The notes below the pieces were generated by a model. The model made no database searches and was not told the origin of the DNA. It was given only the letters and a program-made list of their open reading frames with translations. Both the position numbers and the translations under genes were made by a program. Below are positions 9,117 through 54,538 of a stretch of 64,000 nt of DNA, in pieces (positions within the stretch are counted from its first letter, which is position 1; the number at the start of each line of letters is the position of its first letter). The stretch comes from Elusimicrobia bacterium RIFOXYA2_FULL_47_53 (GTDB lineage Bacteria; Elusimicrobiota; Endomicrobiia; Endomicrobiales; XYA2-FULL-47-53): NCBI GenBank assembly GCA_001800315.1, contig MGVE01000009.1, positions 35,121 to 99,120 of the forward strand, given 5' to 3'.

Positions 9117-9314
9117 GTTTTTGTTCCGTCACTGATTATACGAAAATAATCTCATAACCTCAAGCCGCGCGCTATGAATCAGCGGGATGTCCCACCTAAG
9201 CACTGTTTAATAAAAAACTGCATAACAGCAAGAATTATTTAAATGGCCGCCAAAATCATATAAACAGAACTGCTCTAATGCAATTTCCAGTAAATATGCC
9301 TTATTATTCAAGCC

Positions 9315-12032
9315 CTATTTTATTATAGCGATTTTCCCTATTTTCTTCTGGGCGCGGTTGTCCGGGTTGACTATATAATAAATATATACACCGGAGGCGA
9401 CCTTCTCCCCACTATTATTTTGTGCGTTCCAGACTACAAGGCCGTCGCCGTCAGCTTCGCTGAATTCCGCGACAAGTTCGCCGGCGATATTGAATATATT
9501 TATATCGGCTTTTGCGGTTAGGTCCTTAAATACTATTCCGGCGCCATATGAGGTCCTGTCAAATTCTCCCCCGCTGCCAGGCTTGTAAGGGTTCGGAAAG
9601 ACCTTAACATTATCCAGATCGGAGGAAGGCGCAATTACGCTTACAAGAGCGAACATTGAAAAATGGTTTATCTGCACCGAAACAGTCTTTGCGGCTTTGT
9701 CCAACGCGTATTCGGGTGATACTTGTACCCATTCCTGGCTTGCTTCATCAAAATTTAATATCCTTAAACCCTCTGCGCGCACGGGTGGTGCGGTATTGTC
9801 TATAATCTCATTATTGTCTGTGTCAGGATAGGCAAGCGTAAGCGTCATAGGTTTGTTGAATACAGAGACAGTTGAGCCGCCGATGTCGTAGTACTTCAGG
9901 TCAACGATGGAATCTTCCATCAAAATCTTATTCTTCAGCTTTAACTTATCAGCGCCAACTACAAGCTTTGCTCTCATTGCGGGTGCCGCGCTGTTTTTGG
10001 CATTTGCGTCAATTATTATATAGCCGTCGCAGGGAACCGCCCCTTCCGGAAGCAATACCTTAACCTCGCCAAATGAAAGGTTGTCGGCTTTCTGTTCCTG
10101 CTGGCCTGATGTATTCGCGTGAATGAGCGTTATACCTGCAGGCAGCGGCTGGGTCCCGGCAGTTGCATATACATTGCCGGTATCAATCCCGCTGATATTA
10201 TAGGCGCAAATTGAATACTGATAAGTCGTGGCAAGCGATAACCCCGAATTACAATAAGTGTTAACATCCTGTTCTAAATCTGCCACAGCTGACCAAGTTG
10301 AGCCATCCATAGTTCGCTTTATCTTATAACCAGCAGCCGCACTTTTATCCCAGCTTAAAACAACACAGTGCCTGCCGTCAGTTGAGGTTTTGAAATTCGC
10401 AGGCGCTTGAGCCAGCGTAACAGCTTCCATCTGCGCTGCTGTTCCCTGTCCGTAATCGTTGTAAGGCTTAATATATCGCTGGTATTTTGTGTTTGGCGTA
10501 AGGCCGGACTCAAGCCAGGAAGTAGTGGCCTTATCCAGCTCCTGAAGCAGTGTATTGTCAGCTTTTGAGAATATGCGGTATCCGCTAACCACGGCGGCAT
10601 CGGTACTGTTCCATACCCAGGTTACGCTTGCGTCAGTCGCAAGCACAGCAGAAGCGCCGGATATCTCAGGAAATGGTATGGGCGAAGTTACATCAAGCGA
10701 TGCAGATGTGTTTGATGGCAGGTAATAGTAGCCGTCGCCGGCATATTCTACGGAAATATTGAATATATTCTGGTCAAGGTGTATCTCGGGATAAACTGTT
10801 GCTGTGCCGCTGCTGTTTGTTATGGCGGTATAGGATGTGTTGTTTATGGTAAATACTATTACCTGGTTGGCAAGTTCAGCTGAATCAAGCTTGGTAAGCG
10901 TTGCCTTAAATATCGCGGTTTCATGCTGCGGTACGGTAGTATCACCGGAATAGACAAGTTGTGTCTGGTTTGGCACTACAGATACAATAGAGTTGGTTCT
11001 CGTTTCTTCCGGTACGCTTGGAAAATATACGGTTGCGTAATTTGTAATAGACGCTCCTGAAGCCATGCTCCCCTTTGCCGAAACAGTAATATCAAATTTT
11101 CCGCCTTGCCTTGAGCCGACCTCGCCTTCGTTATCCATATATACCGTTAAAAGCCGGGTATCGTCATCGTACTCATACTCAAAAGTCGCGGCAGTTTCGG
11201 AACTTGTAAGGTAGTTTATGCGTTTGCAGTTGGAAACGATAACAGAAGAATCATCAATGTCCGTATCCAAAATATCCGCAACATACACGCCATAGGCGAT
11301 GCCTTCCCCTTCGTTTTCAAATTCCACGGTATAGGTGAGCGTCTGACCTGCAGAAATGCTGCCGTCAGGGCCGTACATTATGTTAGGGTCGTGGGCAACA
11401 CCAATAATACCAAGTATTTTTTTCCATATTTCGTCTTTCCCGTCACATTCATCTTTATTTTTATCTCTATTACTAAATATCTTTTCAAGATCCACTTCTT
11501 CACCATTATGGGTTACATGTATATCCAAATGAGAACCATCGCCATGTTCCGAGTACACACTTCCCGTATTTCCCATCTCTGCAATTTGTGCGCCGCCAAC
11601 AACCTCACTATCCCTCGATGGCAAGATACTATTATATTTTAAATGCCTGTATGATGATTTCCAGCCTCCGCCATGATTAATATCAATATAATTCCCTTGC
11701 GCACGTTTTTTTGCATCATTTACTCCAGCATAGTTCGGATTAGTATACACGGTAGATTTATCCTCATCATTATCTAAATCATTTACAACCTCTTCCACAA
11801 TACCATCTCCAAGAGAATATACTGGATCAGTAATAATACCATCAATATCCGTTGACCCATGTATTTTATTCTCATGATTTACCCTTGGTTCATTAAAGCC
11901 ACTTGTTATTTGATGATTAGAACCCCTATCTGTAGGCCAAAACACTTCAAAATCAGGCTGTGGAATATTCCCAGCAAAAAGAATTGAAGCTGGAATAATC
12001 ATTAGAACAAAAAGCACTATTTTGTTTTTCAT
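9315..12032 (-). CDS. Secreted multidomain protein: M23-like, DUF11-like, Ig/FN3, FlgD-like tail
   Basis: 905 residues with signal peptide (1-20). Residues ~35-185 resemble an M23/LytM peptidase: KIHGSTDIDG matches the first H-x-D zinc motif, but the second motif reads SHLDIHV where the family has HLH, so activity is doubtful. Next comes a DUF11-like domain (~213-325, ISAGQTLTYTVEFENEG), an Ig-like domain (~355-450), two fibronectin-III domains (~455-640), a ZU5-like region (~640-805), and a C-terminal FlgD/Ig-like domain (~815-905, VKVFPNPYKPGSG ... GVYIYYIVNP) of the sort used as a cell-surface sorting or anchoring tail. The first ~215 codons are much more AT-rich than the rest, as if grafted on. 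Probably a surface or wall-associated protein. Confidence 0.75.
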   Translation of the reverse strand: MKNKIVLFVLMIIPASILFAGNIPQPDFEVFWPTDRGSNHQITSGFNEPRVNHENKIHGSTDIDGIITDPVYSLGDGIVEEVVNDLDNDEDKSTVYTNPNYAGVNDAKKRAQGNYIDINHGGGWKSSYRHLKYNSILPSRDSEVVGGAQIAEMGNTGSVYSEHGDGSHLDIHVTHNGEEVDLEKIFSNRDKNKDECDGKDEIWKKILGIIGVAHDPNIMYGPDGSISAGQTLTYTVEFENEGEGIAYGVYVADILDTDIDDSSVIVSNCKRINYLTSSETAATFEYEYDDDTRLLTVYMDNEGEVGSRQGGKFDITVSAKGSMASGASITNYATVYFPSVPEETRTNSIVSVVPNQTQLVYSGDTTVPQHETAIFKATLTKLDSAELANQVIVFTINNTSYTAITNSSGTATVYPEIHLDQNIFNISVEYAGDGYYYLPSNTSASLDVTSPIPFPEISGASAVLATDASVTWVWNSTDAAVVSGYRIFSKADNTLLQELDKATTSWLESGLTPNTKYQRYIKPYNDYGQGTAAQMEAVTLAQAPANFKTSTDGRHCVVLSWDKSAAAGYKIKRTMDGSTWSAVADLEQDVNTYCNSGLSLATTYQYSICAYNISGIDTGNVYATAGTQPLPAGITLIHANTSGQQEQKADNLSFGEVKVLLPEGAVPCDGYIIIDANAKNSAAPAMRAKLVVGADKLKLKNKILMEDSIVDLKYYDIGGSTVSVFNKPMTLTLAYPDTDNNEIIDNTAPPVRAEGLRILNFDEASQEWVQVSPEYALDKAAKTVSVQINHFSMFALVSVIAPSSDLDNVKVFPNPYKPGSGGEFDRTSYGAGIVFKDLTAKADINIFNIAGELVAEFSEADGDGLVVWNAQNNSGEKVASGVYIYYIVNPDNRAQKKIGKIAIIK

Positions 12033-40406: not shown

Positions 40407-42518
40407 TCAGGCAAGGCTGGGCTTTATGTCCACTATCAAAAGCTGAAGCGTCTTTCTGTCCTGCCAGTTGTTGACTTCCATCTGAAACGCGAGGTCCACC
40501 GCGTCGTGAGCCGCGAGCGCTTCGTCCAGGTGCCCCAGCCCCCAGCCCACAGCGCCCAGAGCAGGTCCTCCGTTTTTTGAAAGCCTGAGTTTCAGGTGAG
40601 TGCCGTTAGCGCCAAGGCGCGTCCGCTCAATAATTTTCATGTTGTTCATGGAGAAAACCGGATAAGGGTTGCCCATACCGAACGGTTCCAGCTCCGCGAG
40701 CTCGTTGTAGAGTTTCATGCTGGGGCCGTATGTATCAAGCTCGGAATCTATTTCAATGCTTGAATCAAGCAGTTCGTCTGAAATTTCCTTTGCCGCCAGC
40801 TCTTTTATTCTCTTTCTAAATTCCTCCAGCTTATCCAAAGCCACCGTAAGGCCGGCCGCCTGGCTGTGGCCCCCGAATTTGACAAGCAGATCCTGAACCT
40901 TCTCAAAACAGGAAACAATGTCAAAACCTTTTATGGAGCGCGCCGCGCCCATGGCCTGGCCGTCTTCAATAATAAGGAGCACCGTGGGCCTGTGATACTG
41001 CCGTGAAATCTGGGAAGCTATAATTCCCGTGACGCCGTGCTCAACGCCTTCCGCGACCACCACGAATATCCTGTCATTTTCTATGTCGCACTGCTTCTCA
41101 AGAAGCGGAATGAATTTTTCCATATTCTCGGCCTGGAGTTCGCGCCTCTCATCGTTAAGTTTAGTTATCTCGTCTATAAGCTTATGCGCCCTGTATTCAT
41201 CTTCCGTCAGCAAAAGCTCGGCGGAAATATTCGCCTTGCCTCTTCTGCCCGCAGCGTTTAAAAGCGGCGTAATGCCCCAGGATATGGACTTGGCTGAAAG
41301 CTTTTCGCTTTTGCCGCGCCCGAGGCATCTCTGCATAAGTGCCTGCAAACCCACTTTTTTTGAGTCAAGCAGTTTGCCGAGGCCGTGCTTGACCACCACG
41401 CGGTTCTCGTCAACAAGCGGCATTATGTCGGCTATCGTTCCCAAAGCCACCACATCCAGGTGGTTCTCGCGAAAAAATTTCATTCGCAGGTCGTTAATCT
41501 TCTCCAGTTTCCAGAACGCTTCTCCGAGAAACCTTGCCGCCTTAAGAATATCTCCGCCGGGCGCGGCACATAGCCCTATTTCGGCTGCAATGGGGCCAAA
41601 CGCTTTGCCGGATTCCGGATTGAGCGCGCAGATTACGGCGAGATCTATAATCTCGTTTTTAGACGGAACAAACCATGTTTTTCCGGACGAATCAACAACA
41701 ACCCTGCCGTTGCCGATAAACTCCCTTAATTCCTCAGAGCTTTCACGGCCGTCCATAACAAATATTTTTTCCTCTTTGACTATTCCGTTTACTGTTTTCG
41801 CGGCGCCTATTTCAAATTTATTTCCGGGAAGCTCCCGAACCGCGGCGCAGACCAGCTCTTTGCCGTAATGCCTTCCGAAAGAAAGCATGAGCGCCTCGGC
41901 CACTTTAAGCGAAACAAAACATCCGGCCAGATCGCTGAAGGGATAATCGGAACCGGATATTTTTGGGTTTACTATCGCCTCGGCCTTCGGCAGCTCCGGC
42001 GCCTTGGGCTCGTGATGGTCGGTAATTACAAAATCCATTCCAAGAGTTGTTCCGTGTTTTACTTCCTCGGCAGCCGAAATGCCGCAGTCAACGGTTATAA
42101 CAAGCTTGACACCCTGCGAAGCGTAGCGGCTCAAAACTTCATTGTGCACCCCGTAACCTTCATCCGAGGGAATATACCACAGGGGTTTGGAGCCCAGGCT
42201 CTCAAGCGTGCGCACCATAACGCTAATGGAGGCGACGCCGTCAACATCCCTGTCTCCGTAAACAAGAATCTGTTCGCCCGTGTCAACCGCGCGCCTTATC
42301 CGCTTAACCGCCGCATCCATATCTGGCAGAAGAAACGGGTTCGCGAAGGCGTCGGTTTGCGGAAAAAGAAAATCGCGCGCCTTTTGCGGAGTATCAATGC
42401 CTCGGTTCACCAGCACGGCCGCGACCGGCTCAGAAATGCCGATCTCGCCGGCTATCTCGCTGACGAGGGCTTTGGAGGGTTCTTTATAAACCCAGTTCTT
42501 TGGTTTAGAGTTCTTCAT
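40407..42518 (-). CDS. recJ: Single-stranded-DNA exonuclease RecJ with internal insertion
   Basis: 703 residues, about 130 more than typical RecJ. DHH motifs are present: YGDRDVDGVASISVMV (motif I, normally DYD), TVDCGISAAEEV, TDHHEP (DHH), ALGTIADIMPLVDENR, and the DHHA1/OB part with GGHSQAAGLTV. The extra ~140 residues fall between PFSDLAGCFVSLKVAEAL and LDVVALGTIAD. RecJ degrades 5' ssDNA in recombination and repair. The ATG overlaps the end of deoA by 14 bases, so a repair nuclease is embedded in a nucleoside-salvage operon. Confidence 0.92.
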   Translation of the reverse strand: MKNSKPKNWVYKEPSKALVSEIAGEIGISEPVAAVLVNRGIDTPQKARDFLFPQTDAFANPFLLPDMDAAVKRIRRAVDTGEQILVYGDRDVDGVASISVMVRTLESLGSKPLWYIPSDEGYGVHNEVLSRYASQGVKLVITVDCGISAAEEVKHGTTLGMDFVITDHHEPKAPELPKAEAIVNPKISGSDYPFSDLAGCFVSLKVAEALMLSFGRHYGKELVCAAVRELPGNKFEIGAAKTVNGIVKEEKIFVMDGRESSEELREFIGNGRVVVDSSGKTWFVPSKNEIIDLAVICALNPESGKAFGPIAAEIGLCAAPGGDILKAARFLGEAFWKLEKINDLRMKFFRENHLDVVALGTIADIMPLVDENRVVVKHGLGKLLDSKKVGLQALMQRCLGRGKSEKLSAKSISWGITPLLNAAGRRGKANISAELLLTEDEYRAHKLIDEITKLNDERRELQAENMEKFIPLLEKQCDIENDRIFVVVAEGVEHGVTGIIASQISRQYHRPTVLLIIEDGQAMGAARSIKGFDIVSCFEKVQDLLVKFGGHSQAAGLTVALDKLEEFRKRIKELAAKEISDELLDSSIEIDSELDTYGPSMKLYNELAELEPFGMGNPYPVFSMNNMKIIERTRLGANGTHLKLRLSKNGGPALGAVGWGLGHLDEALAAHDAVDLAFQMEVNNWQDRKTLQLLIVDIKPSLA

Positions 42519-43809
42519 ATATAAGTTTTTGCGGCTTTGGTTTTTCCGGAGCGATTTTGTACGCCCCTGCTATCAGGGCCGCGGCTTCTTTAGATGAACG
42601 GCCGGCTCCGAAATGCATGACGGCGAGCGGCTCATTTATTTCCACCTTGTCTCCGAGCTTCTTTAATCCCGTAATGCCCGCGGCAAGGTCAATAGCATCT
42701 TCTTTTTTACGCCTTCCCGCGCCAAGTTCAATGGCGGCAAGCCCTATCTGCTCGGTATTTATGTAATCCACGAATCCCGCGGCGGCAGAAGGCACTGCCT
42801 CGCTTGAACCCGCCTGCGGAAGGTATTTGTCCGGTTCGTCTATGACTCCCGGCTCTCCGCCCTGTGACTCAATAATCCGTCCGAATTTTTTCAGAGCGTT
42901 ACCGTTAGACAAATTCTCCAGCAGGAGGCGGCGCGCGCTTTTGTTGTCCGGCGCTTTTCCCGCCATTACTACCATTCTTGCTCCAAGCTCCATCACCAGT
43001 TCAACAAAGTCGGGAGCGCCTCCGCCCTTTAACACTTCTATGGCGTGCTTAAGCTCAATGGCGTTGCCCACGCAGTTGCCAAGAGGCTGGTTCATGTCCG
43101 TCACTACGGCTCTTACATCAATGCCGAAGCTTCTGCCGATATTTATCATTGACTGGGCCAGAGCCCTCGCGCCGCCCAAACTTTTCATAAAAGCGCCGGA
43201 ACCGGATTTCACATCCAGCAGAAGCGCGTCGCAGCCTTCCGCGATTTTTTTTGACATTATGCTTGCCGAAATCAGGCTTATGGAATCAACCGTCGCGGTA
43301 ACATCGCGCAGGGCGTAAATTTTTTTGTCGGCTGGAGCCACATCCGCCGTCTGGCCTATCATGGCAACGCCTATATCTCCGAGCTTATCCAAAAATTCGG
43401 TTACCGATAAATCTGTCCTGAAACCCCGGATTGACTCAAGTTTGTCAAGCGTGCCTCCCGTGTGGCCCAGGCCGCGCCCCGACATCATAGGCACCACCGC
43501 TCCGCAGGAAGCCACAAGCGGCGCCAGCACAAGAGATGTTCCGTCCCCGACTCCTCCGGTGGAATGTTTGTCCACCTTTATCCCGGGAAGGCCGGTTAGA
43601 TCCAGGGTCCGGCCGGAAGCTATCATGGCTTTTGTAAGCTGAACCGTTTCGTCTTTGTCCAGGCCTTTAAGAAACGCCGCCATAAGAAAAGCCGACATCT
43701 GGTAATCTGGCAGCTCGCCGCTTGAGTAGCGCGAAACCATAAAATCAATTTCATCGTCTTCAAGCTTTACGCCGTTTCTCTTTTTATAAATAATTGAATA
43801 GGGCCGCAT
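42505..43809 (-). CDS. deoA: Pyrimidine-nucleoside (or thymidine) phosphorylase
   Basis: 434 residues. The family signature KVDKHSTGGVGDGTSLVLAP is intact, as are SGRGLGHTGGTLDKLES and LLLDVKSGSGAFMK. It cleaves (deoxy)uridine and thymidine with phosphate, giving the base and (deoxy)ribose-1-phosphate. The C-terminal region (INEPLAVMHFGAG) shows the PYNP domain. Whether it is thymidine-specific (DeoA) or broader (Pdp) cannot be told. Eight bases after punA; uridine from Cdd would be its substrate. Confidence 0.94.
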   Translation of the reverse strand: MRPYSIIYKKRNGVKLEDDEIDFMVSRYSSGELPDYQMSAFLMAAFLKGLDKDETVQLTKAMIASGRTLDLTGLPGIKVDKHSTGGVGDGTSLVLAPLVASCGAVVPMMSGRGLGHTGGTLDKLESIRGFRTDLSVTEFLDKLGDIGVAMIGQTADVAPADKKIYALRDVTATVDSISLISASIMSKKIAEGCDALLLDVKSGSGAFMKSLGGARALAQSMINIGRSFGIDVRAVVTDMNQPLGNCVGNAIELKHAIEVLKGGGAPDFVELVMELGARMVVMAGKAPDNKSARRLLLENLSNGNALKKFGRIIESQGGEPGVIDEPDKYLPQAGSSEAVPSAAAGFVDYINTEQIGLAAIELGAGRRKKEDAIDLAAGITGLKKLGDKVEINEPLAVMHFGAGRSSKEAAALIAGAYKIAPEKPKPQKLIYEEL

Positions 43810-43817
43810 AAATTATT

Positions 43818-44645
43818 TTAATCCGCCGCGCCGATAATATCCAAAACGAGCTCTCCGAGTTTATGACTGATTTTCTGCCCGGCTTTCAAAACCTCGGCGT
43901 GCGACAAGCGCCCTCCGGAAGCTGAAGACGCCTTGTTTGCCACATAAGAAATAGCCGCGATACTCATACCCATCTGCCTGGCCGCGACAGCCTCGGGAAC
44001 CACCGACATTCCCACGACATCGGCGCCCAACTTTCTAAACGCTTTTGCCTCTGCGGGAGTTTCGTATGTGGGGCCGCTTACGGCAAGATAGGTTCCCTCG
44101 CAAGCCTTGAGCCCGCGCCTCCTGGCCAGAGAAAGGAGCTTTCTGCGCCAGGTTTTGTCATAAACCTCGCTCATGTCGGGGAAACGCGCTCCGAACTCCC
44201 TGGTGTGAGGCCCGCGAAGGCAGTTAACACCCATGAAATTAATATGGTCTTTAAGCACCACGATGTCGCCGGGCCTGTATTTGGGGTTAAGCGCCCCCAC
44301 CGCAGAAGTTATAAGTAAATTTTTTACACCCATGTACCCCATGAGCCTCACGGGATAAATTACTTCTTCCATGGAGTGGCCTTCGTAATAATGCACCCGT
44401 CCCGCCATTACAAGCACGGCTTTCCCCGAGAGATTTCCGATAATCAGCTTGCCGCTATGCCCCTCAACGGTTGAAGGCTTAAAGTGAGGTATCTCGGAAA
44501 AATCAATAACCGTATCGTCGTGGGAACTTTCCATCAAAGAGCCGAGGCCGGAACCGAGTATCAAGCCCAAGCGCGGGCGCGCGGGCGTTTTTCTGAAAAT
44601 ATATTCCATGCTCTCTTTGAGTTTATCTACTATTGATTCCCGCAT
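43818..44645 (-). CDS. punA: Purine-nucleoside phosphorylase, trimeric class
   Basis: 275 residues. LGLILGSGLGSLMES, VEGHSGKLIIGNL, MAGRVHYYEGH, TSAVGALNPKYRPGD and YLAVSGPTYETPAE with GMSVVPEAVAARQMGM match inosine-guanosine phosphorylases. It releases the purine base and (deoxy)ribose-1-phosphate, which DeoB converts to the 5-phosphate. Lies 24 bases after deoB and 8 before deoA. Confidence 0.95.
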   Translation of the reverse strand: MRESIVDKLKESMEYIFRKTPARPRLGLILGSGLGSLMESSHDDTVIDFSEIPHFKPSTVEGHSGKLIIGNLSGKAVLVMAGRVHYYEGHSMEEVIYPVRLMGYMGVKNLLITSAVGALNPKYRPGDIVVLKDHINFMGVNCLRGPHTREFGARFPDMSEVYDKTWRRKLLSLARRRGLKACEGTYLAVSGPTYETPAEAKAFRKLGADVVGMSVVPEAVAARQMGMSIAAISYVANKASSASGGRLSHAEVLKAGQKISHKLGELVLDIIGAAD

Positions 44646-44668
44646 TACAATCCGCCTTTTGACCCGTA

Positions 44669-45859
44669 TCAGGGGTTTAAAATTTCTTTCTTAAAACTCT
44701 CTCCGTTTTTAATTCCGTCCAGGGAGAAAATATCGGCGATGGTCTTCGCGAGATCCGCGAAGGTTTTCCTGACTCCCAGGTCCCGCCCGGCAGCAATACG
44801 GCTGCCGTAAACAAGAAGCGGCGCGTATTCCCGGGTATGGTCGGTATGCGCGGTAAAAGACGGGTCGCAGCCGTGGTCAGCCGTTATAAACAAAACATCG
44901 TTTTCATTCATTGAAGCTTTAAGCTCCGGCAGAAAATCGTCAAATGCTTTTAACCCCGCGGCGTAGGATTTCAAATCCCTCCTGTGGCCCCACAACATGT
45001 CAAAATCAACAAGGTTCGTAAAAATAAGGGATTTGCCGGAGGCTTTATTTTTTATCAGCTCAAGTGTTTTCTTCATTCCCTCGGCATTATTTCCCGTGTG
45101 AAACGCGGCGGAAATACCCCTCTTATTAAAAATATCCTCAATCTTTCCCACCGCAAGCACTTCTCCGCCGGATTCATGGATGATGTCAAGCAGAGTCCTG
45201 TCAAAAGGAGAAAGGCTGAAATCCCTTCTGTTAGAGGTTCTTTCAAAACTTCCGGGCTCTCCTGTAAACGGCCTGGCTATTACCCGTCCGACGGCGTGCT
45301 TTCCTTTGAGTATGGCTCTTGCCGCGGCGCAGACTTCATAAAGCCGCCGGAGCCCGAAATATTTTTCGTGCGCCGCAACCTGAAAAACCGAGTCCGCGGA
45401 GGTATAGACTATCGGGAAAAGAGTTTTTATGTGTTCGGCGCCGAGTTCGCGGATTATTTCCGTGCCGGAAGCAGTCTTGTTGCCGAGAGTCTTTGTACCT
45501 ATTTTTTCCTCAAATTCCGCGATAATTTCCCGCGGAAACCCGTTCGGATAAGTGGGGAAAGCCTCTTTGAGTATGAGGCCGGAAAGCTCCCAGTGGCCTG
45601 CGGTCGTATCCTTGGCGCGCGAGGCGCACGCCATTTTCGCGAAGGAACCGTCGTATCGCGGAACCCTGTAATCAAGCCCCGCCGACTTGTAGAGTCCGAG
45701 CGCGGCAAGATTGGGCAGGCTGTAAGCCGCGCCCGATCCCTCAATGATATGAGCAAAAGTATTGGCGCCCGCGTCGCCGAATTCGGAAGCGTCGGGCAGA
45801 GCCCCGATACCGAGGCTGTCTAATACAACAATAACGCATCTGTCTATTTTAGTTTGCAT
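44669..45859 (-). CDS. deoB: Phosphopentomutase
   Basis: 396 residues. Metal-binding and nucleophile motifs of the alkaline-phosphatase superfamily: VLDSLGIGALPDASEFGDAG, DTTAGHWELSG (catalytic Thr), TNLVDFDMLWGHRRD and ITADHGCDPSFTAHTDHTRE. It interconverts (deoxy)ribose-1- and 5-phosphate, linking DeoA/PunA with DeoC and RpiB. Its ATG overlaps the stop of the upstream histidine kinase by one base (TGATG). Confidence 0.96.
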   Translation of the reverse strand: MQTKIDRCVIVVLDSLGIGALPDASEFGDAGANTFAHIIEGSGAAYSLPNLAALGLYKSAGLDYRVPRYDGSFAKMACASRAKDTTAGHWELSGLILKEAFPTYPNGFPREIIAEFEEKIGTKTLGNKTASGTEIIRELGAEHIKTLFPIVYTSADSVFQVAAHEKYFGLRRLYEVCAAARAILKGKHAVGRVIARPFTGEPGSFERTSNRRDFSLSPFDRTLLDIIHESGGEVLAVGKIEDIFNKRGISAAFHTGNNAEGMKKTLELIKNKASGKSLIFTNLVDFDMLWGHRRDLKSYAAGLKAFDDFLPELKASMNENDVLFITADHGCDPSFTAHTDHTREYAPLLVYGSRIAAGRDLGVRKTFADLAKTIADIFSLDGIKNGESFKKEILNP

Positions 45860-48800
45860 CAGGCCTTTGCCGCTTCCCCTGGTCCCGCGGCCGGCTTTTC
45901 GGAAAAATCCCTCATTCCGGGCTTAGCGCGGGGTATTAAAAAAGTGAAGGTTGAACCCATGCCGGGCTCGCTTTCCACCCAGATCTGTCCGCCGTGAAAT
46001 TCAATTATTGATTTTACTATCGCCAGTCCCAGTCCCGCGCCCGCGGTAGAACGGGTCGTTCCGGTTTCGGCCTGATAGAATTTTTCAAATATCCTCTGCT
46101 GGTCTCTACTGCTTATTCCTATGCCGCTGTCTTTCACGCTAAACATCAGATAATCGCCCTTGTCAACAGCCGCGACATCAATCCTTCCGCCGGAAGGAGT
46201 AAATTTTATGCTGTTAAGTATGAGGTTGTCAAAAACCTGGCGCAGGCGGTCCCTGTCGGCGTTAATAAGCGGTAAAATCGCCGGCAGTTCAGCTTTGAGG
46301 GTTAACCCTTTTTTCTGAGCTTCACCCGCGATATTTCTCACAACCTCTTCAATAAGGGCTTTTGGGTCAACCTGTTCCATTCTTACCGTGAGTTTTCCCG
46401 ACTCAATCCTTGAAATATCAAGCAGATCGGAAATAAGCACCGTAAGCCTGTCGGTTGACTGATCGGCTATCTGAAGGAACTTTTCCTGCTGGGAGTTGAG
46501 CGGCCCGGCTTCTCCCTGCAGAACGACTTTCACAAAACCCTTTATCGTAGTGATCGGCGTCCTGAGTTCGTGCGAGACAATGGACAAAAATTCGTTCTTG
46601 ACCTGGTTGAGCCTTTCCTGCTCTATCTTGGCGTCTCTGAGAGAGTCGTAGAGATGGGCATTCGCTATAATTACGGCCGCCTGATGCGAAATAAGAGTGG
46701 CCAGCCTCAGATGGTCTTTGTTGTAGGAGTTGGCCTGGTGCCTGCCTATCCTGAGCACTCCGATAACTTTATTTTCAGCCATAAGCGGCACAATTATAAT
46801 TGAGCGAAGGTCCCACAAACGCGCGGTCTGGCTTTTTATTCTCGGGTCAAGCGAAGCGTCCGGGCTTAAGAAGGGTTCTCCCGAACGGAAAACCTGGGCC
46901 GAAAGGGAATTCGGGTCGTCAACGGGTATTTTCAGCATGACCGAAGCGCCGTCGCCGGTAAAATAGGCCCCGGACTGCGTCTCAAGTTCACCCGTCATTT
47001 CATTAAAAAGCAGCAGGGCGCAAAGATCGGAGGCAAAGGCTTTTGTGGTGGTTGAAACCACCTTATTCATGGTTTTGTCCAGTTCCGGTTCGCTGGAAAT
47101 GGCGGAAGATATTTCCTGAAGCGCCGTAAGGTCCCGGAGCCTGTGTTCCAGTTCCTGGTAAAGAGTGACATTTTCTATTATTCCGGCTATCCTGTCGGCG
47201 ATAAGTTCAAGAATCCTGAGGTCGTCCTGAGTGAAAGGCGCGCCGAATTTGTTGGCCACCCCCATAACTCCGACAGGTTTATTTCCGGAGCGCAGAGGTA
47301 CTATGGCCAGTGAATGTATCGCGAGCAGGTTCGCCAGCAGAGGCAGAGCCTCTCTTGAACTTTTTTCGTCGTTGAAAACAAAATGTTTCGCGTCTTTTAT
47401 CGCCGAGCCTAACACCCTGGCCTCGTTAAGGCTGAAACGAAGCCTTGAAAATTCCCTGTCCTTGATGCCGAAGAAGGGAGGCGAGGGTATAACTTCGTTT
47501 GTCTCGGGAGAATAGAGAAAAATTCCGGCCGCCTGAGCGCTGAGCAGCTCCTTGGTCTTGTCAACTATCATTTCCAGCAGTTCGGAAAGGCCGGACTTTG
47601 CCGCGGCGTAACCGGCAATATCCGAGAGAGCTTTCATTTCGCGGACTTTCTGGATAAGCCGCGAGTTGGTCTGAATGAGCTCCATCGTGGTTGAGGAAAC
47701 TTCCGTTTCAAGCCTCCTGTTGAGCTCTCCCACCCTTTCGTATAACCCCACATTCCTGACAGCGATTGAAAGATATTCGGCAAGGGTTTTAATCGCTTCA
47801 ACTTTTTCATGCGTAAAGAAATTCGTGTCTTTGCTGTTAACATTCAGAATTCCCATGCACTTTGAATCAACAACTATGGGAATATAAACAAAGGAACCTA
47901 TGCCTTCTTTTGCGTAATCCGCGGCGGAAACTCCCAGGCCCGGCTTGGCGAAATCATTTACGACCACGCTCTCGCACCGCTGGTAGGCGTGCCCGAGCAA
48001 TCCGTCTCCCGGCCTTACCCGAACCGATTTGGCCCACTCGGGAGAGAGGCCCCTGTAATTTTTTGTTGAAAGGAAACCATTTTCTCCGTACATTATCACG
48101 GAACTTGAGACGGTGTTAAATTTCTTTATGATTATCTCAAGCACAACATTGAAAATATCGTTAACCTCAAGATGAGAGGTCAGCGCCTTGGAAACGGAAA
48201 GCAGCATCTGGAGGGTCTCCGTGGTTCCGGAAAGCTTGTTGTTTATGGTATTAAGCCTTAAGGCAATCTGGCGCCATTCGCTGGGATAGGCGGACGCGTC
48301 AAAAGACTCAAATCGCTCATTTTCAATATTTTCAAGAAATTGGCGCAGTTCCCTCAAAGGAGAGATAAAGCTTGCCCTTATGTATGAATATATACCCAGG
48401 AAAGCCCACAATGCCAGCCCGGCCAGCCATATTCCGAGGAATAAATATGTTTTTTGCCTGGCCGGCCCCGAAAATATATACCCGGCATCGGGCCACACGG
48501 TAAGAAGGTTTGCCTCGCCGCCCCGGGAAGGCAGAGGATAGACCAAACCGTGCAATTTCAAAGTGTACTTTCTCATTTTCCAGGCATCTTCGTAATAGGA
48601 CCGGCCGTTATGAGAAAAATTTATGCCCGCCATGATCCCCGTGGAGTTGTAGAAATCCTCAATGGCGGACTTGACCGAGCTGGGATCGCTTTTCTCAAGC
48701 ACGGACTGCACCAGGAGCATTGTTTTGGGGTTTTTATCGGGAGAGAAATGAGAGTGCATCAGCGACCTGAAAAACAGGTATCCGCCCAGAAAATATAACG

Positions 48801-48864
48801 CGCATATCAGCGAGAAGAAAAATATGATTCCGGCGGAGTGCTTTAAGACCAGTTTTTTCATCAT
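45859..48864 (-). CDS. Membrane sensor histidine kinase with HAMP and three GAF domains
   Basis: 1001 residues. Two transmembrane helices (~11-33 and ~140-162) flank an extracytoplasmic sensor; a HAMP-like linker follows (FISPLRELRQFLENIENERF), then three GAF domains (~220-375, ~415-580, ~590-745), then HisKA with the phosphoacceptor in IVSHELRTPITTIK (His765), and a HATPase domain with DNLILNSIKFTPSGG, VKDSGIGIS and GAGLGLAIVKSIIEFHGG, all intact. The C-terminus is a short Pro/Ala tail. Start overlaps the stop of the DnaA-like gene by one base (TAATG). No response regulator is nearby; the output partner is unknown. Confidence 0.93.
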   Translation of the reverse strand: MMKKLVLKHSAGIIFFFSLICALYFLGGYLFFRSLMHSHFSPDKNPKTMLLVQSVLEKSDPSSVKSAIEDFYNSTGIMAGINFSHNGRSYYEDAWKMRKYTLKLHGLVYPLPSRGGEANLLTVWPDAGYIFSGPARQKTYLFLGIWLAGLALWAFLGIYSYIRASFISPLRELRQFLENIENERFESFDASAYPSEWRQIALRLNTINNKLSGTTETLQMLLSVSKALTSHLEVNDIFNVVLEIIIKKFNTVSSSVIMYGENGFLSTKNYRGLSPEWAKSVRVRPGDGLLGHAYQRCESVVVNDFAKPGLGVSAADYAKEGIGSFVYIPIVVDSKCMGILNVNSKDTNFFTHEKVEAIKTLAEYLSIAVRNVGLYERVGELNRRLETEVSSTTMELIQTNSRLIQKVREMKALSDIAGYAAAKSGLSELLEMIVDKTKELLSAQAAGIFLYSPETNEVIPSPPFFGIKDREFSRLRFSLNEARVLGSAIKDAKHFVFNDEKSSREALPLLANLLAIHSLAIVPLRSGNKPVGVMGVANKFGAPFTQDDLRILELIADRIAGIIENVTLYQELEHRLRDLTALQEISSAISSEPELDKTMNKVVSTTTKAFASDLCALLLFNEMTGELETQSGAYFTGDGASVMLKIPVDDPNSLSAQVFRSGEPFLSPDASLDPRIKSQTARLWDLRSIIIVPLMAENKVIGVLRIGRHQANSYNKDHLRLATLISHQAAVIIANAHLYDSLRDAKIEQERLNQVKNEFLSIVSHELRTPITTIKGFVKVVLQGEAGPLNSQQEKFLQIADQSTDRLTVLISDLLDISRIESGKLTVRMEQVDPKALIEEVVRNIAGEAQKKGLTLKAELPAILPLINADRDRLRQVFDNLILNSIKFTPSGGRIDVAAVDKGDYLMFSVKDSGIGISSRDQQRIFEKFYQAETGTTRSTAGAGLGLAIVKSIIEFHGGQIWVESEPGMGSTFTFLIPRAKPGMRDFSEKPAAGPGEAAKA

Positions 48865-50714
48865 TATATATCCGGAGAAGTATTCTTAAGCAGCGTGATA
48901 TCCAAAGACAGGTTCAGGTACCGGTAATCCTTATTTAGCTCGGCCCAGGGTATCAGCTGAAGAGAAAGCTTCTCGTCGTCCATAATTGTCGCCAGGAGGT
49001 TCGCGAATTCCTCGGACTCAATGTTGCTTTCCGGCGGTGGCCCGAGCACCACCGCGATGCTGATCTTAATGTTTTTGCACAGCTCCGGAAACTGGGCATA
49101 GTTTACTTTTTCCGTCAAGCTGAAGCTCTGTTCAAAAACGCTAACAAGCTTAAACTTCAGCTTATGTTTTTTTATAACCTCTTTGAAATGTTCTTTTACC
49201 TTTGAGAGTTCCGCTTCCTTGGTTTCAGGGTAAAAGAAAACAACTTCTATCGGTTTTAAATTCGCGTCCTGCGCGTCCGGCTGAGGTTTGGGAGGCTGAA
49301 AAACCGGTATCTTTATCTGTGGCGCTTCCTTTACAGGCTCAGGCTTATGCACGGTAACAGGAGGTACGGCCGACGCGGGAGCCGAAGCCTGGACGGGCGG
49401 CTCTTCGGCTATGGGGATCGCGTGCGCCAGAGAAGGAGCGGGCGCTGCCTCAGCCGCCGGAGCGGCGGTTTTTTCAGGGGCGGGCTGTGCAGGTTGAATG
49501 GGCTTTGGCTGTTCCTGCGGGAAAGATATGGGCGGCGGCGGCAGTTCCGTTTTAAGCGATGCAGGCACCGGCTCCGCCATTTCTTCCGGAGGAAGCAGGT
49601 CGCTCATCAAGACTTTAACCAGGTCAAGATTAACTTCCTGGTGAGTGAGCGAGGCGTATGCGTTTATCCTTTTTAAAAACCCTTCCAGTTCCCTGATGTT
49701 TGATTTAAGCTTGGAGGCTATGTAAAGAAGAATATTATCGTTTAAGGTCAGATGATCCAGCTCGCCTTTTTGCTTTAAAATAGCGACCCGCGTCTCAAGA
49801 TTGGGGGATTTTATATCGGCGATAAGGCCCCACTCAAAACGGCTGCGCAGCCTGTCTTCAAGAGTTGTCAGCTGTTTTGGAGGCCGGTCGGAAGTCACAA
49901 TTATCTGTTTGCCGTTTTGATGAAGTATGTTAAAGGTATGAAAAAACTCTTCCTGCGTTGACTCAGATTCAACAAGAAACTGAATATCATCCACCAGCAG
50001 CAGGTCCACCTTGCGGTAATGCTCCCTCATCTGCTGGAGACTGCCCTTCCTGATGGAATCAATCACCTCTCCCATAAATTTCTCGGTGGTCACATAAAGT
50101 ATCCTTAAGTTCGGATTCTTTTTTCTTACATAGTGGCCGACCGCGTGCATCATATGGGTTTTGCCAAGGCCCACTCCGGAATAAATGAAAAATGGATTGT
50201 ATATTTTACCGGGATTGTCGGCTACCGCCTGCGCGGCGGCCGCGGTAAAACGGTTATTAGGGCCTATGATGAAATCTTTAAAAGTATAGCGGGGGTTTAG
50301 TTCAAGGTCTTCAAAACCGTAATCCGATTTCGGCTGAGCAGCCGGGGCCGGCTCCGGCGCGGGCGCGGCTGGAGCCTTTGACGGCTGAGAGTTTGTGGCT
50401 TTATCTATGCCGGCAGCCAGACCCTCAAGTTCTTCGGAGAGTTTTTCCTCTTGCTTAGGTTCAACGAAAATTCCTTCTCCGAATTTTTTTTCAAGAGCCT
50501 CTCTGACGGCCTTAATCTCTTCGCTGCCCGCCATATAAATATAGAACCCGAATTCGTATTTTCCGTCCTCCACTAAAAAAGGCCGGCTTTTATTTACGGA
50601 AAGCTTATCCAAAACCGAGCTTAGCTCGGACTCATCCGCTTTTATTTTGGCTCGCCAGCGGTTAGGGTCTTTTTCCGCGGGATATTGCAGCAGTTCCCAT
50701 CTCTTATCGCTCAT
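48864..50714 (-). CDS. DnaA-type AAA+ protein without the DnaA DNA-binding domain
   Basis: 616 residues. The middle (~138-378) is a complete DnaA/Hda AAA+ module: NPRYTFKDFIIGPNNRFT, Walker A GVGLGKTH (180-187), Walker B LLLVDDIQF (238-246), sensor I TSDRPP (274-279), box VII LEDRLRSRFEWG (285-296) and sensor II SNIRELEGFLKR (338-349). The N-terminal ~110 residues are not DnaA domain I. In place of the HTH domain IV is a ~100-residue Pro/Ala linker (~378-485) and a novel alpha/beta C-terminal domain (~487-616, IEVVFFYPETKEAELSKVKE). So it is unlikely to bind DnaA boxes and is not a normal initiator. Followed by the GAF kinase gene with a one-base overlap. Confidence 0.88.
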   Translation of the reverse strand: MSDKRWELLQYPAEKDPNRWRAKIKADESELSSVLDKLSVNKSRPFLVEDGKYEFGFYIYMAGSEEIKAVREALEKKFGEGIFVEPKQEEKLSEELEGLAAGIDKATNSQPSKAPAAPAPEPAPAAQPKSDYGFEDLELNPRYTFKDFIIGPNNRFTAAAAQAVADNPGKIYNPFFIYSGVGLGKTHMMHAVGHYVRKKNPNLRILYVTTEKFMGEVIDSIRKGSLQQMREHYRKVDLLLVDDIQFLVESESTQEEFFHTFNILHQNGKQIIVTSDRPPKQLTTLEDRLRSRFEWGLIADIKSPNLETRVAILKQKGELDHLTLNDNILLYIASKLKSNIRELEGFLKRINAYASLTHQEVNLDLVKVLMSDLLPPEEMAEPVPASLKTELPPPPISFPQEQPKPIQPAQPAPEKTAAPAAEAAPAPSLAHAIPIAEEPPVQASAPASAVPPVTVHKPEPVKEAPQIKIPVFQPPKPQPDAQDANLKPIEVVFFYPETKEAELSKVKEHFKEVIKKHKLKFKLVSVFEQSFSLTEKVNYAQFPELCKNIKISIAVVLGPPPESNIESEEFANLLATIMDDEKLSLQLIPWAELNKDYRYLNLSLDITLLKNTSPDI

Positions 50715-50784: not shown

Positions 50785-50964
50785 TCACGAGTTCTTTGCC
50801 GCGACGGCTTTGCGGCGCGCTCCGGATTTTTTTCCGCCCGCAAAAACCGCTGGGTCTATCGCGATTTTTCCGTCAGCGGGGCTGCCCGGGACACTTAAGA
50901 CCATGCTGGCAAGGACTTTGTTCACATCTTCAATCAGCTGAGAAATCTCGTCTTTTTCTTCCAT
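50785..50964 (-). CDS. 59-residue protein between pilT and the DnaA-like gene
   Basis: ATG at 50964 begins two bases after the pilT stop. The peptide starts MEEKDEISQLIEDVNKVLAS, has an amphipathic helix, then PGSPADGKIAIDPAVFAGG and a basic tail (KKSGARRKAVAAKNS). No family is recognised. The tight spacing after pilT and the acidic-to-basic charge change suggest a real gene; a weak Shine-Dalgarno lowers confidence. Confidence 0.5.
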   Translation of the reverse strand: MEEKDEISQLIEDVNKVLASMVLSVPGSPADGKIAIDPAVFAGGKKSGARRKAVAAKNS

Positions 50965-50966
50965 TT

Positions 50967-52043
50967 TTATTCGGCGCCGCGCTCTATTCCCCTGAGTTTT
51001 AAAGTAAGGTCGTCGGGATTAGAGGATTTATCAAGCGCCTCCTCCATGGTTATTTTGCCGTCCTTGTATAATTCAAGGAGCGACTGGTCAAAGGTTCTCA
51101 TGCCGTAATAAGAACCCTGCTCCATTGCTTTATAGACATCGCTGAGTTTGTCGTCAGCCAAAAGTTTTTTAATAAGAGAAGTGCCTATAAGGATTTCGGT
51201 TACGGGCAGCCTGGAGCTGCCGTCCTTGCTGCTGACAAGACGCTGAGCCACTATGCCTTTTATTACATAAGCCAGCTGGCTTCTGACGGAAGCCTGCTGG
51301 TGGGGCGGGCAGGAACCGACTATTCTGTCTATTGTCTGAGCCGCGTCCATTGTGTGAATCGTGGAAATCACAAGATGGCCGGTCTCCGCGGTTGTTATAG
51401 CGGCAAGCATGGCCTCGTAATCGCGCATTTCTCCGATAACCACCACATCCGGATCCTGGCGGAGTATGTACTTCAGGGCCTTAGAATAAGACTTGGTGTC
51501 TATTCCGACCTCCCTCTGCGATACGGAGGACTTTTTATCCTTATGGAAATACTCTATCGGGTCCTCCACCGAAACAATGTTGTACTGAAAATTACTGTTT
51601 ATATAATCAACGATAGAATTCATGGTCGTGGTCTTGCCGGCGCCGGTAACTCCCGCTATAAGTATAAGGCCGCGCGGCTCGGAGGCGAGTTTCTGCATCG
51701 GCTCGCCCGGAAGGTTCAGCTCCGCGAAATTTTTTATGCTCAGAGGCACAACCCGAAGCGTAAGAGCTATGGTGCCTCTCTGCCTGTAAACATTAACCCT
51801 GAACCGCGACACCGCGTCTATAGAGTGGGCCAGGTCCAGCTCGTTTTCTTCCAGAAAATGCTTTTTCTGCGCGTCGTTCATAAAAGAAAAAGCCAGTTCC
51901 TCTAAATGTTTATAGCTGAACTGGTCAAATCCCGTTGAAATCAGTTTGCCGTTGACCCTGATAAGCGGGGCCGCTCCGGCCTTAAAGTGAATATCCGAGA
52001 TATTCTTCTTTACCATCAGTTGCAGCAGCTCGTTGACATTCAT
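50967..52043 (-). CDS. pilT: PilT-type secretion/retraction ATPase
   Basis: 358 residues. VNELLQLMVKKNISDIHFKA at the N-terminus, Walker A GVTGAGKTTTMNSIVDYIN, Asp box VEDPIEY, Walker B QDPDVVVIGEMRD, and AETGHLVISTIHTMDAAQTI. PilT powers type IV pilus retraction (twitching motility, DNA uptake). No other pilus gene lies nearby, which is common for pilT. It overlaps deoC by four bases and is part of the long nucleoside operon, together with a PilZ gene. Confidence 0.95.
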   Translation of the reverse strand: MNVNELLQLMVKKNISDIHFKAGAAPLIRVNGKLISTGFDQFSYKHLEELAFSFMNDAQKKHFLEENELDLAHSIDAVSRFRVNVYRQRGTIALTLRVVPLSIKNFAELNLPGEPMQKLASEPRGLILIAGVTGAGKTTTMNSIVDYINSNFQYNIVSVEDPIEYFHKDKKSSVSQREVGIDTKSYSKALKYILRQDPDVVVIGEMRDYEAMLAAITTAETGHLVISTIHTMDAAQTIDRIVGSCPPHQQASVRSQLAYVIKGIVAQRLVSSKDGSSRLPVTEILIGTSLIKKLLADDKLSDVYKAMEQGSYYGMRTFDQSLLELYKDGKITMEEALDKSSNPDDLTLKLRGIERGAE

Positions 52044-52699
52044 GATAAATCCCTGCCGGTTTTCTCACGGGCAATTATTTCCAGTGAAGATGATGTCCCC
52101 AAACGGCTCGCTCCGGCCGCGATCAGCCTTGCCGCATCGCCGTAGGTCCTGATTCCGCCTGAGGCCTTTATCGCGGTTTTTGGGCCCAGCGTTTTCCGCA
52201 GCAATTCTATATCGCGGACAACGGCTCCGCCCGAAGAAAAGCCCGTGGAAGTTTTAACAAAATCGGCTCCGGCCCGCTCCGCGAGACGGGCGGCGGCAGC
52301 CTTTTCTCTGTCACTGAGCAGGCAGGCCTCTATAATAATTTTCAGCGTTTTACCGCGGCACGCCGACCTCAAAGCCCTGAACTCTTTATTTATGTAGCCG
52401 TATTCTCCCGACTTAAAAAGGCCAATATTCATCACCGCGTCAATCTCGTCGGCCCCGTTCCTGATAGACTCGGAAGCCTCAAATACTTTTGCATTAATGC
52501 TGTTGGCGCCCAGCGGGAATCCGCATACCGAGCTTACTTTTACCCTGCTTTTTTTGAGAATTTTTTTGCACAGCGCCACATGGCACGGATTAACGCAGAC
52601 CGAATAAAAACCGGCCTTTTTGGCCTGCGAACAAAGTTTCCGAATATCCGACAATTTCGCCGAAGGTTTTAAAAGCGTATGGTCTATGAACTTTGCCAT
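52040..52699 (-). CDS. deoC: Deoxyribose-phosphate aldolase
   Basis: 219 residues from ATG 52699, the usual DeoC length; an upstream GTG at 52738 would overlap rpiB. IDHTLLKPSAKLSDIRKLC, VCGFPLGANS, EIDAVMNIGLFKSG (Schiff-base region), KTSTGFSSGGA (catalytic Lys) and IKASGGIRT. It splits 2-deoxyribose-5-phosphate to glyceraldehyde-3-phosphate and acetaldehyde, so it drains the DeoB product into glycolysis next to tpiA. Confidence 0.94.
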   Translation of the reverse strand: MAKFIDHTLLKPSAKLSDIRKLCSQAKKAGFYSVCVNPCHVALCKKILKKSRVKVSSVCGFPLGANSINAKVFEASESIRNGADEIDAVMNIGLFKSGEYGYINKEFRALRSACRGKTLKIIIEACLLSDREKAAAARLAERAGADFVKTSTGFSSGGAVVRDIELLRKTLGPKTAIKASGGIRTYGDAARLIAAGASRLGTSSSLEIIAREKTGRDLS

Positions 52700-52719
52700 G
52701 CCGCCGCCAGGGGTCAGAT

Positions 52720-53181
52720 TCACTTGCGCCCTTTGCACATTTTTTCCTCAAGCTTGCCGATCTTTTCAACTCTCTGGCGGTGCCTGGCCTCCGGGCTGAA
52801 AGGCGTTTTTATCCAGGCCTCTATCATATCCTGAATATCCTCGGGTTTGGAAAACCTGGCCGACAAACATAGAATATTGGCGTTATTATGCTCGGCGCAG
52901 AGTTTCGCCACCTCCCTGTTCCAGCAAACGGCTGCCCTTACTCCTCGGAACTTATTTGCGGCGATGGACATACCTATACCTGTCCCGCACATCAAAATTC
53001 CTCTCTGCACTTCTCCGCTTGAAACCGCGCCCGAAACCGCTCCGGCGATTTCCGTGTAATCGCAGCTCGCGGCGGAATGGGTCCCGTAATCAATAACCCT
53101 GTGGCCGAGACTCTCCACGAAATTAATTATTCCGTCCCGTAATTTATAACCTGCATGATCGCATCCAAAAGCGATATTCAC
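52720..53181 (-). CDS. rpiB: Ribose-5-phosphate isomerase B
   Basis: 153 residues. GCDHAGYKLRDGI, DYGTHSAASCDYTEIA, GILMCGTGIGMSIAANKF and AHNNANILCLSAR are the family blocks, with the catalytic Cys in LMCGTG. Interconverts ribose-5- and ribulose-5-phosphate, disposing of ribose-5-phosphate from ribonucleosides. 20 bases before deoC. Confidence 0.95.
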   Translation of the reverse strand: MNIAFGCDHAGYKLRDGIINFVESLGHRVIDYGTHSAASCDYTEIAGAVSGAVSSGEVQRGILMCGTGIGMSIAANKFRGVRAAVCWNREVAKLCAEHNNANILCLSARFSKPEDIQDMIEAWIKTPFSPEARHRQRVEKIGKLEEKMCKGRK

Positions 53182-53197
53182 GATAAATTCTCCGCTT

Positions 53198-53569
53198 TTA
53201 ATTCAACTCGTTCCACAGGATACTGTCCTGTTCGGCCTTTGTAGTTTCTATGAACTCGCCAAGCATCTCCTGCTCACCGGCACTCAGGCTGACAAACTTG
53301 GCCATATAGAGCTTTTTATTTTCTTTTTTTCCGGTGCCGGCGACACCCACGATCTCGGCGGAGCATTTGAATTTCACGCTATTGGGCAGCGTTATCTCAA
53401 GCTCAACGGTATCGCCGTTGGCGTACTCCGACTCGGCGGAAAACTTAACTCCTCCAACTGATATATCTATAATTTTGCCGACAAGCACCAGCAGCGGGCC
53501 GGAAAGAATACGCATCTGGCCCGCGGGCAGAAAAACTCTGATATATTTGCGCCGCTCTTCGCCTTTCAT
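53198..53569 (-). CDS. PilZ-domain c-di-GMP receptor
   Basis: 123 residues from ATG 53569 (a TTG 12 codons earlier is less likely). A single PilZ domain: RRKYIRV supplies the RxxxR box and DISVGGVKF the (D/N)xSxxG box, both needed for c-di-GMP binding. No other domain. Encoded between tpiA and rpiB and upstream of pilT; it may relay the c-di-GMP made by the GGDEF proteins of this window to motility or metabolism, but the target is unknown. Confidence 0.85.
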   Translation of the reverse strand: MKGEERRKYIRVFLPAGQMRILSGPLLVLVGKIIDISVGGVKFSAESEYANGDTVELEITLPNSVKFKCSAEIVGVAGTGKKENKKLYMAKFVSLSAGEQEMLGEFIETTKAEQDSILWNELN

Positions 53570-53609
53570 GAAGCAAACCTCTTCCTGTGCGCTGACGAGC
53601 CGCAAATTT

Positions 53610-54365
53610 TCAGTACTTTACTATTTTAGCGAAAGAATCAGCCTCAAGGCTCGCGCCGCCGACCAATCCGCCGTCAATGTCAGGCTGTTTCATAAGCTCC
53701 GCCGTATTGTCCGGCTTAACCGATCCGCCGTACAATATTCTGGCCGCCTCGGAGGCGTTTGCTCCGTACATCTGCAGATACTGTTTCCTTATAAATGCGT
53801 GCACTTCCTGCGCCTGTGCAGGCGTCGCTGTTTTTCCGGTGCCGATGGCCCAGACAGGCTCATAAGCAATAACCAGCGCTTCCGACTGCTCTTTGGTGAG
53901 TCCGGCGAGGCCGTTTTTTATCTGTTTTTCTATTACCGAAAAAGTCTCGTTCTTTTCTCTCTGCTCAAGTGTTTCGCCCACGCAGACAATGGGAATTATG
54001 CCGGCCGCGAAAGCCGCCTTGGCTTTTTTGTTGACGCTCTCATCGGTTTCCGCGAAATACTGACGGCGCTCGGAATGTCCTATAATCACATACTTGCATT
54101 CAAAATCCTTAAGCATGGCCGGAGCTATCTCGCCGGTAAACGCGCCCTTGGATTCCCAATGCATGTTCTGCGCGCCGAGATTTATGTTTGACCCTTTAAT
54201 TTCCCGGGAGACTTCCGCGAGATAAACAAAGGGAGGACAGACAAGAACTTCCCTGTCTGAAACTCCCGCGAGTTTTTCTTTTAAACCTTTTACCAGATCT
54301 TTTGCCTCTGCTGCGTTTTTGTACATCTTCCAGTTTCCCGCTAAAAGCGGCTTGCGTGTAGACAC
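53610..54365 (-). CDS. tpiA: Triose-phosphate isomerase
   Basis: 251 residues from GTG 54365, which stands six bases after AAGGAG; earlier Met codons lack any such site and would lengthen the protein beyond the norm. GNWKMYKN (Lys), IGHSERRQYF (His), AYEPVWAIGTGKTA (Glu) and LYGGSVKPDN are intact. Interconverts DHAP and glyceraldehyde-3-phosphate, receiving the latter from DeoC. First gene of the long operon and preceded by a 165-base leader. Confidence 0.96.
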   Translation of the reverse strand: MSTRKPLLAGNWKMYKNAAEAKDLVKGLKEKLAGVSDREVLVCPPFVYLAEVSREIKGSNINLGAQNMHWESKGAFTGEIAPAMLKDFECKYVIIGHSERRQYFAETDESVNKKAKAAFAAGIIPIVCVGETLEQREKNETFSVIEKQIKNGLAGLTKEQSEALVIAYEPVWAIGTGKTATPAQAQEVHAFIRKQYLQMYGANASEAARILYGGSVKPDNTAELMKQPDIDGGLVGGASLEADSFAKIVKY

Positions 54366-54538
54366 CGTGGTCTCCTTTATGTCGCGCGTACCGATCGGCA
54401 CGGCTAACCAAAATAATTTCGCTATAGCTGCGGTTTGCGCCGCTCCGCGTAAAAGAAGAACATCCTCCCGGCCCAGATAGCACCGGGGGGAACGCGGTAT
54501 TCTTTTGCGATGCTATGTAAAAACGAAATTTGTATTAA

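Follow-up and report, generated by a model that had tools for sequence, protein, structure and literature searches.

The closest described relative of the protein analysed here is domain III of DnaA, an AAA+ core with Walker, sensor, and arginine-finger motifs and an initiator-specific motif (ISM) with residues for single-stranded DNA (ssDNA). In Bacillus subtilis DnaA, alanine mutants of N187, I190, I193, R202, and E228 are severely defective, and the residue roles that have been described include contacts to ssDNA as well as a contact of K222 with the double-stranded DNA (dsDNA) backbone (PMC10721633). Related proteins are Hda, a regulatory inactivator of DnaA that is itself paralogous to DnaA and lacks domain IV, and the DnaC/DnaI/IstB loaders, which belong to a related AAA+ clade. 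A second system relevant to this locus is the MID domain of Argonaute/PIWI proteins; prokaryotic Argonautes (pAgo) use it to hold the guide 5'-phosphate with the residues Y/R/H-K-Q-...-K (Ryazansky et al., PMC6299218).

Here, we describe a 616-aa protein from Elusimicrobia bacterium RIFOXYA2_FULL_47_53. Its gene starts with ATG and occupies positions 48864..50714 on the minus strand of a 64,000-nt window, the whole stretch of DNA that was analysed. The protein shares the AAA+ core of DnaA domain III; unlike DnaA, it has no detectable domain I or helix-turn-helix (HTH) domain IV, lacks K222, carries foreign N- and C-terminal domains, belongs to a different operon, and occurs in a genome that also encodes a real DnaA. 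The DnaC/DnaI/IstB loaders match it with weak scores only and differ in domain architecture. We found no DnaA paralogue of this build, with an N domain, an AAA+ core, and a MID-like domain, in the literature.

The AAA+ core and its relation to DnaA

From the N- to the C-terminus, the protein comprises an N domain (residues 1-86; 50457..50714), a DnaA AAA+ domain (residues 136-378; 49581..50309), a Pro/Ala-rich linker (residues 379-482; 49269..49580), and a MID-like domain (residues 486-612; 48879..49259), all encoded on the minus strand. Pfam places Bac_DnaA at residues 139-299 (E = 3e-71) and reports nothing convincing in either end domain. The open reading frame is real, with orthologues of the same architecture recurring across the phylum far above chance. 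The first-pass annotation had proposed a DnaA-type ATPase with intact AAA+ hallmarks, flanked by ends that are not those of the initiator, and this description was borne out. The Walker A lysine (K185), the Walker B aspartates (D242/D243), the arginine finger (R292), and the sensor 2 arginine (R341) are all present, together with the ISM residues I218, I221, and R230. An alignment to B. subtilis DnaA (PDB 8btg; E = 2e-92) covers residues 118-377 of the paralogue and ends there. Profile comparison of the C domain with domain IV of Elusimicrobiota DnaAs gave a probability of 0.1%, with no HTH domain IV detectable. The N domain compared with DnaA domain I gave values close to background (3.9%, score 18.9), leaving domain I undetectable, and its predicted order of secondary structure elements differs from that of domain I.

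The source genome spans 2.41 Mb in 20 contigs, at a completeness of 100, and contains exactly two Bac_DnaA matches. The other one (G000:C6) is a 454-aa full-length DnaA that scores 564.8 bits over the whole TIGR00362 model; its gene is followed by dnaN and gyrB, and TTATCCACA DnaA boxes flank its start. Since the true initiator is encoded elsewhere, in this dnaA-dnaN-gyrB locus with DnaA boxes, the 616-aa protein is, judged by its sequence and genomic context, a DnaA paralogue and not the initiator. The paralogue reading, which the first-pass annotation would have given up had the C domain proved a divergent domain IV or had no other dnaA existed, thus stands. The paralogue passes the cut-off of the NCBIfam DnaA equivalog model TIGR00362 (361.8 versus 343.9 bits), as do three of its relatives (369-377 bits), so these proteins would be annotated as dnaA, an error that had been foreseen.

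Over the AAA+ domain, identity to the genome's own DnaA is about 52%. In the AAA+ tree, a single clade (support 0.979) unites the DnaAs of Elusimicrobiota, B. subtilis, Thermotoga, and Aquifex, and the paralogues all fall outside it, from which the split between the two looks old; its exact root is made uncertain by long branches. Identity, the B. subtilis match, and the tree agree that the AAA+ domain shares common descent with DnaA. Loose DnaA boxes occur nine times in the window versus 4.3 expected (5 of 100 shuffles reach nine), none of them clustered at the operon of the paralogue. A 709-aa DnaA-like frame in another genome (G009) turned out to be an ordinary DnaA that has domain IV, adjoins dnaN, and probably sits on a foreign contig. 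Locus L163 (G009:C5) is listed as a second DnaA beside dnaN in this genome, which has one already, and looks like a contaminating contig of the assembly.

We further counted the equivalents of B. subtilis DnaA residues in 30 core members of the paralogue family. The Walker A lysine, the Walker B aspartate pair, and the box VII arginine finger (R264) are each present in 30/30, and the sensor 2 arginine (R313) in 29/30; at the level of conserved residues, the requirements for ATP binding, hydrolysis, and head-to-tail oligomerization are intact. Among the ssDNA residues, the equivalents of I190, R202, and E228 are each identical in 28/30, the I193 position holds I, L, or V in 28/30, and the N187 position is mostly Ser. 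K222, in contrast, is replaced by Ser or Ala in 28/30 core members and is Lys in 14/15 Elusimicrobiota DnaAs. The simplest reading is that the core is a DnaA motor still able to oligomerize and to hold ssDNA, which would have lost its dsDNA address.

In divergent lineages (families f15, f16, f26, and others), the arginine finger, sensor 2, and the residues for ssDNA have disappeared, so that oligomerization on DNA cannot be essential everywhere. The domain order persists in these lineages wherever it can be mapped, and the end domains therefore seem to vary less than the rest of the protein. Families f15, f26, and others (L101-L103, L105, L110) have orthologues that measure 750-1100 aa, whose linkers are long and look disordered and whose arginine finger and sensor 2 are degenerate; comM (Mg-chelatase) and dprA lie downstream of several of them.

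Predicted folds of the C- and N-terminal domains

The C-terminal region had been described as an unrecognised alpha/beta domain. The alpha/beta part of this claim holds: an AlphaFold2 model built from an alignment of 24 relatives (mean pLDDT 91) shows the elements b-a-b-a-b-a-b-a. The domain is, however, recognizable, and is predicted to take the Argonaute/PIWI MID fold. Foldseek against the PDB returned the human AGO2 MID as the best match (E = 1.9e-4) and aligned the MIWI MID with TM-scores of 0.67/0.72, and VIA-align superposed the Hili MID over 120 residues with a Z-score of 14.1 and an rmsd of 2.5 A. As in the Rossmann-like fold of MID domains, four strands and four helices follow each other in the same order.

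For an independent comparison at the profile level, plasmid and chromosomal pAgos were fetched, and their MID regions were aligned and compared with the C domain by hhalign. The pooled pAgo MID profile matched with a score of 37.5 (probability 78%, pairwise E = 1.9e-5) over 102 columns in the same strand register; among the controls, 19 further gene families taken from these loci, Rossmann-like ones included, did not exceed 18.8, and no column-shuffled profile exceeded 17.1. Neither the long-pAgo nor the short-pAgo MID alone gave a significant match (2.1% and 3.7%), the strong score appearing only with the pooled profile. We therefore rate the evidence from sequence as moderate and give more weight to the fold. 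The C domain has no Pfam ArgoMid match and no PDB sequence match to Argonaute.

The 5'-phosphate pocket was placed by setting the register on hAgo2, for which the hhalign alignment and the end points of the VIA superposition were used, and residues were counted in 22 sequences; two of the pocket lysines of hAgo2 are K566 and K570. The equivalents in the C domain are F570 (F in 21/22), L574 (L in 19/22), Q586 (Q in 17/22), D605 at K566 (D in 22/22), and L609 at K570 (mostly aliphatic). Four of the five canonical guide-binding residues are thus altered (Tyr to Phe, Lys to Leu, Lys to Asp, and Lys to a mostly aliphatic residue), and the glutamine is mostly kept. By these equivalents, the 5'-phosphate ligands are gone, and the YKQ...K guide-binding motif is absent. 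The domain instead carries a conserved set of its own (FYP, KH..K, GPP, W, K-D-Y-R-Y-.-N, and D), namely F494-Y495-P496, K516-H517, K520, G558-P559-P560, W590, K595, R598-Y599, N601, and D605. These residues would lie mostly in the strand-end loops and the last helix, near the nucleotide site of MID domains.

Unlike Argonaute/PIWI proteins, the paralogue has no PIWI (or PAZ) domain, and no PIWI domain was detected elsewhere in the source genome. Piwi scores above the cut-off in only 3 of 334 genomes, the source genome not among them, which rules out a role as an Argonaute accessory. Two loci of the phylum (L145 and L146, in G129 and G082) encode a short prokaryotic Argonaute of about 450 aa adjoining another ORF, a rare defence-type pair; a homologue on a Bradyrhizobium plasmid comes after a SIR2 gene.

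The N domain, marked by the motif W-E-L...RW/Y, is predicted to be ferredoxin-like (core pLDDT >90) and is without a firm relative. Its best Z-score is 7.5, to eIF1 and to aspartokinase ACT domains, and its Foldseek E-value is 0.013; according to the warning of the tool, all of its matches (SUI1/eIF1, ACT, and BMC/EutS shell folds) fall within the common ferredoxin-like background. A 922-aa relative from the same family as the window genome (Elusimicrobia bacterium RIFOXYA2_FULL_50_26, contig MGVF01000135; locus L073 of G001, 8471-11239) carries two tandem N domains ahead of the AAA+ domain.

The pilT-kinase module and its distribution

All genes of the module in the window lie on the minus strand. 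It begins with a pilT paralogue of 358 aa (T2SSE; 50967..52043), whose stop is followed after 2 nt by the start of a 59-aa ORF (50785..50964). Downstream of the AAA+ gene lies a sensor histidine kinase of 1001 aa with three GAF domains, HisKA, and HATPase_c (45859..48864), the ATG of which shares one base with the stop codon TAA of the paralogue (TAATG). The first-pass annotation, which gave no strand, had this context right, including the 1-nt overlap and the coordinates, and had named conservation of the neighbourhood with the GAF kinase as a check.

Clustering the ORFs around 41 loci revealed the recurrent order pilT, [small protein], AAA+ paralogue, and GAF histidine kinase, in some cases followed by a receiver protein. 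Of the fetched loci, 23 have the pilT cluster and 22 the kinase cluster, neither being universal, and many operon junctions measure -4 to +19 nt (4-nt overlaps or gaps of 0 to 19 nt). Upstream of pilT, the order includes tpiA, rpiB, deoC, or microcompartment genes, and downstream of the kinase or receiver deoB, PNP, and transketolase. In many lineages, a protein of 215-514 aa without AAA+ is encoded between pilT and the AAA+ gene. This small partner starts with a motif like 'DLESILTELKDALSGFSKEE' or with an N domain, often ends in a MID-like C domain, and is present in two tandem copies at L097 and L098. The 59-aa ORF of the window ('EEKDEISQLIEDVNKVLASM...') matches only its leading motif, EI..LI.D.NKVL, and apparently represents a shortened version of this partner (cluster c8), the alignment having been judged by eye and not statistically. 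The module, with pilT and the small partner as members, extends across the phylum and so goes beyond the context noted at first. Most genomes encode PilT, those without the paralogue as well as those with it, and given this near universality, co-occurrence does not tie the paralogue to pili. The leader of the paralogue gene showed no RNA structure (z 0.23).

Several further observations concern the surroundings. The source genome (G000) has at least six PilT/T2SSE-family matches, and the PilT of the operon is not among the two that score highest. Same-strand genes of (deoxy)nucleoside and pentose metabolism, deoA, PNP, deoB (phosphopentomutase), deoC, rpiB, and tpiA, surround the module in the window (42505-45859 and 52040-54401). 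In several other Elusimicrobiota families (L082, 5270-5593; L096, 14936-15535; and their relatives; clusters c9 and c14), the genes immediately upstream of pilT encode BMC shell proteins, and in others a PduL-type phosphotransacylase; the same pilT-AAA+ module thus adjoins bacterial microcompartment genes.

Within the order, orthologues occur in the other genus of the source organism's family and in four more families; none was found in family f6. Across the phylum, the C domain profile matches 128 of 340 genomes, some weakly, in 24 of the 29 sampled families, and the N domain profile matches 138 of the 340; placing the domains on ORFs gave the same succession of N domain, AAA+, and C domain repeatedly across Elusimicrobiota. 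Scanning 84,980 species genomes with two peptide patterns for the C domain yielded 31 loci, all labelled Elusimicrobia or Endomicrobia, and none outside the phylum; distant relatives could escape these patterns and thus may exist elsewhere. Viral contigs contain no relative of the C domain, and the listed phage matches concern the AAA+ part only; on these results, a phage or viral origin was rejected. The protein is best explained as a phylum-specific, ancient DnaA paralogue that is no longer an initiator.

Candidate roles of the paralogue

We favour, with confidence just short of even, the view that the paralogue is an ATP-driven oligomeric switch, probably ssDNA-binding, that works in a PilT-sensor-kinase module and not at oriC. 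Judging from its residues, the ATP form would assemble DnaA-like filaments, probably on ssDNA, without sequence addressing, and the MID-like and N domains would gate this assembly by binding a ligand or partner, for which the small MID-like protein of the adjacent gene is the likeliest candidate. Upstream input or downstream output may be provided by the sensor kinase and PilT, in which case the protein would serve signalling as an ATP-driven switch and would not act at oriC. In a more specific form, which we consider rather unlikely, a PIWI-less MID recruited by a DnaA-type ATPase and its partner would still sense a nucleic-acid end, a nucleotide, or a related ligand, and would so control filament assembly on ssDNA under two-component control throughout the phylum.

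It is also unlikely that the paralogue acts as Hda does, co-assembling with the true DnaA through the shared AAA+ interface, capping or inactivating its filaments, and coupling initiation to the sensor kinase. The interface residues fully kept in the core family and the AAA+ identity to the genome's own DnaA would suit such a role, as would the precedent of Hda itself, whose models match weakly. However, these matches stay well under the cut-offs (107.4 versus 194.8 bits for TIGR03420), the paralogue is a 616-aa protein with extra domains, and its neighbourhood shows no clamp-linked gene, the operon containing pilT and the kinase. Moreover, the whole of family f6 lives without the gene, and divergent members lack the arginine finger.

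We regard as distinctly unlikely that the MID likeness reflects no more than a Rossmann-like arrangement common to both, with the C domain an unrelated sensor or partner domain of a signalling ATPase that has no link to nucleic acids at its C-terminus. The MID is one of several Rossmann-like folds, lumazine synthase and a ribose-binding lobe are among the Foldseek matches, and the changed guide-binding residues and missing Pfam and PDB sequence matches fit this account. Against it, Argonaute/Piwi MIDs make up all 50 listed VIA-align entries (Z 11.5-14.1), and the sequence profiles pick MID over the 19 control families, the small-partner family being the second-best match to the pAgo MID profile (31.2).

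An ssDNA-handling factor that loads on incoming ssDNA during type IV pilus-linked uptake (natural transformation) is very doubtful. The adjoining pilT paralogue, the kept ssDNA residues, and the comM and dprA genes downstream in some divergent lineages would agree with it, but comM-dprA is a widespread chromosomal cluster and the operon has no ssDNA transporter. Nearly every good genome of the order has ComEC, and its persistence in f6, together with PilT in several f6 genera, weakens this reading further. A chromosomal initiator, sole or second, with a divergent domain IV can be dismissed despite the passed DnaA equivalog cut-off, as profile and predicted fold both set the C domain apart from domain IV and a full-length DnaA sits in a dnaA-dnaN-gyrB locus with DnaA boxes.

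The paralogue reading stands, and the new findings are that the module spans the phylum and that the C domain is MID-like. That DnaA equivalog thresholds are passed by non-initiators amounts to a systematic naming error in Elusimicrobiota, and inference based on dnaA, such as the location of oriC or the use of marker genes, can therefore go wrong in this phylum. On the reading as a switch, a DnaA motor would have been re-used outside initiation across the phylum, fused to a predicted MID-like domain without an Argonaute partner, which bears on the origin of MID domains and on their ligands before guides. Were the more specific form true, a PIWI-free MID, a domain so far described in Argonaute/PIWI proteins, would serve as the sensor of an AAA+ switch.
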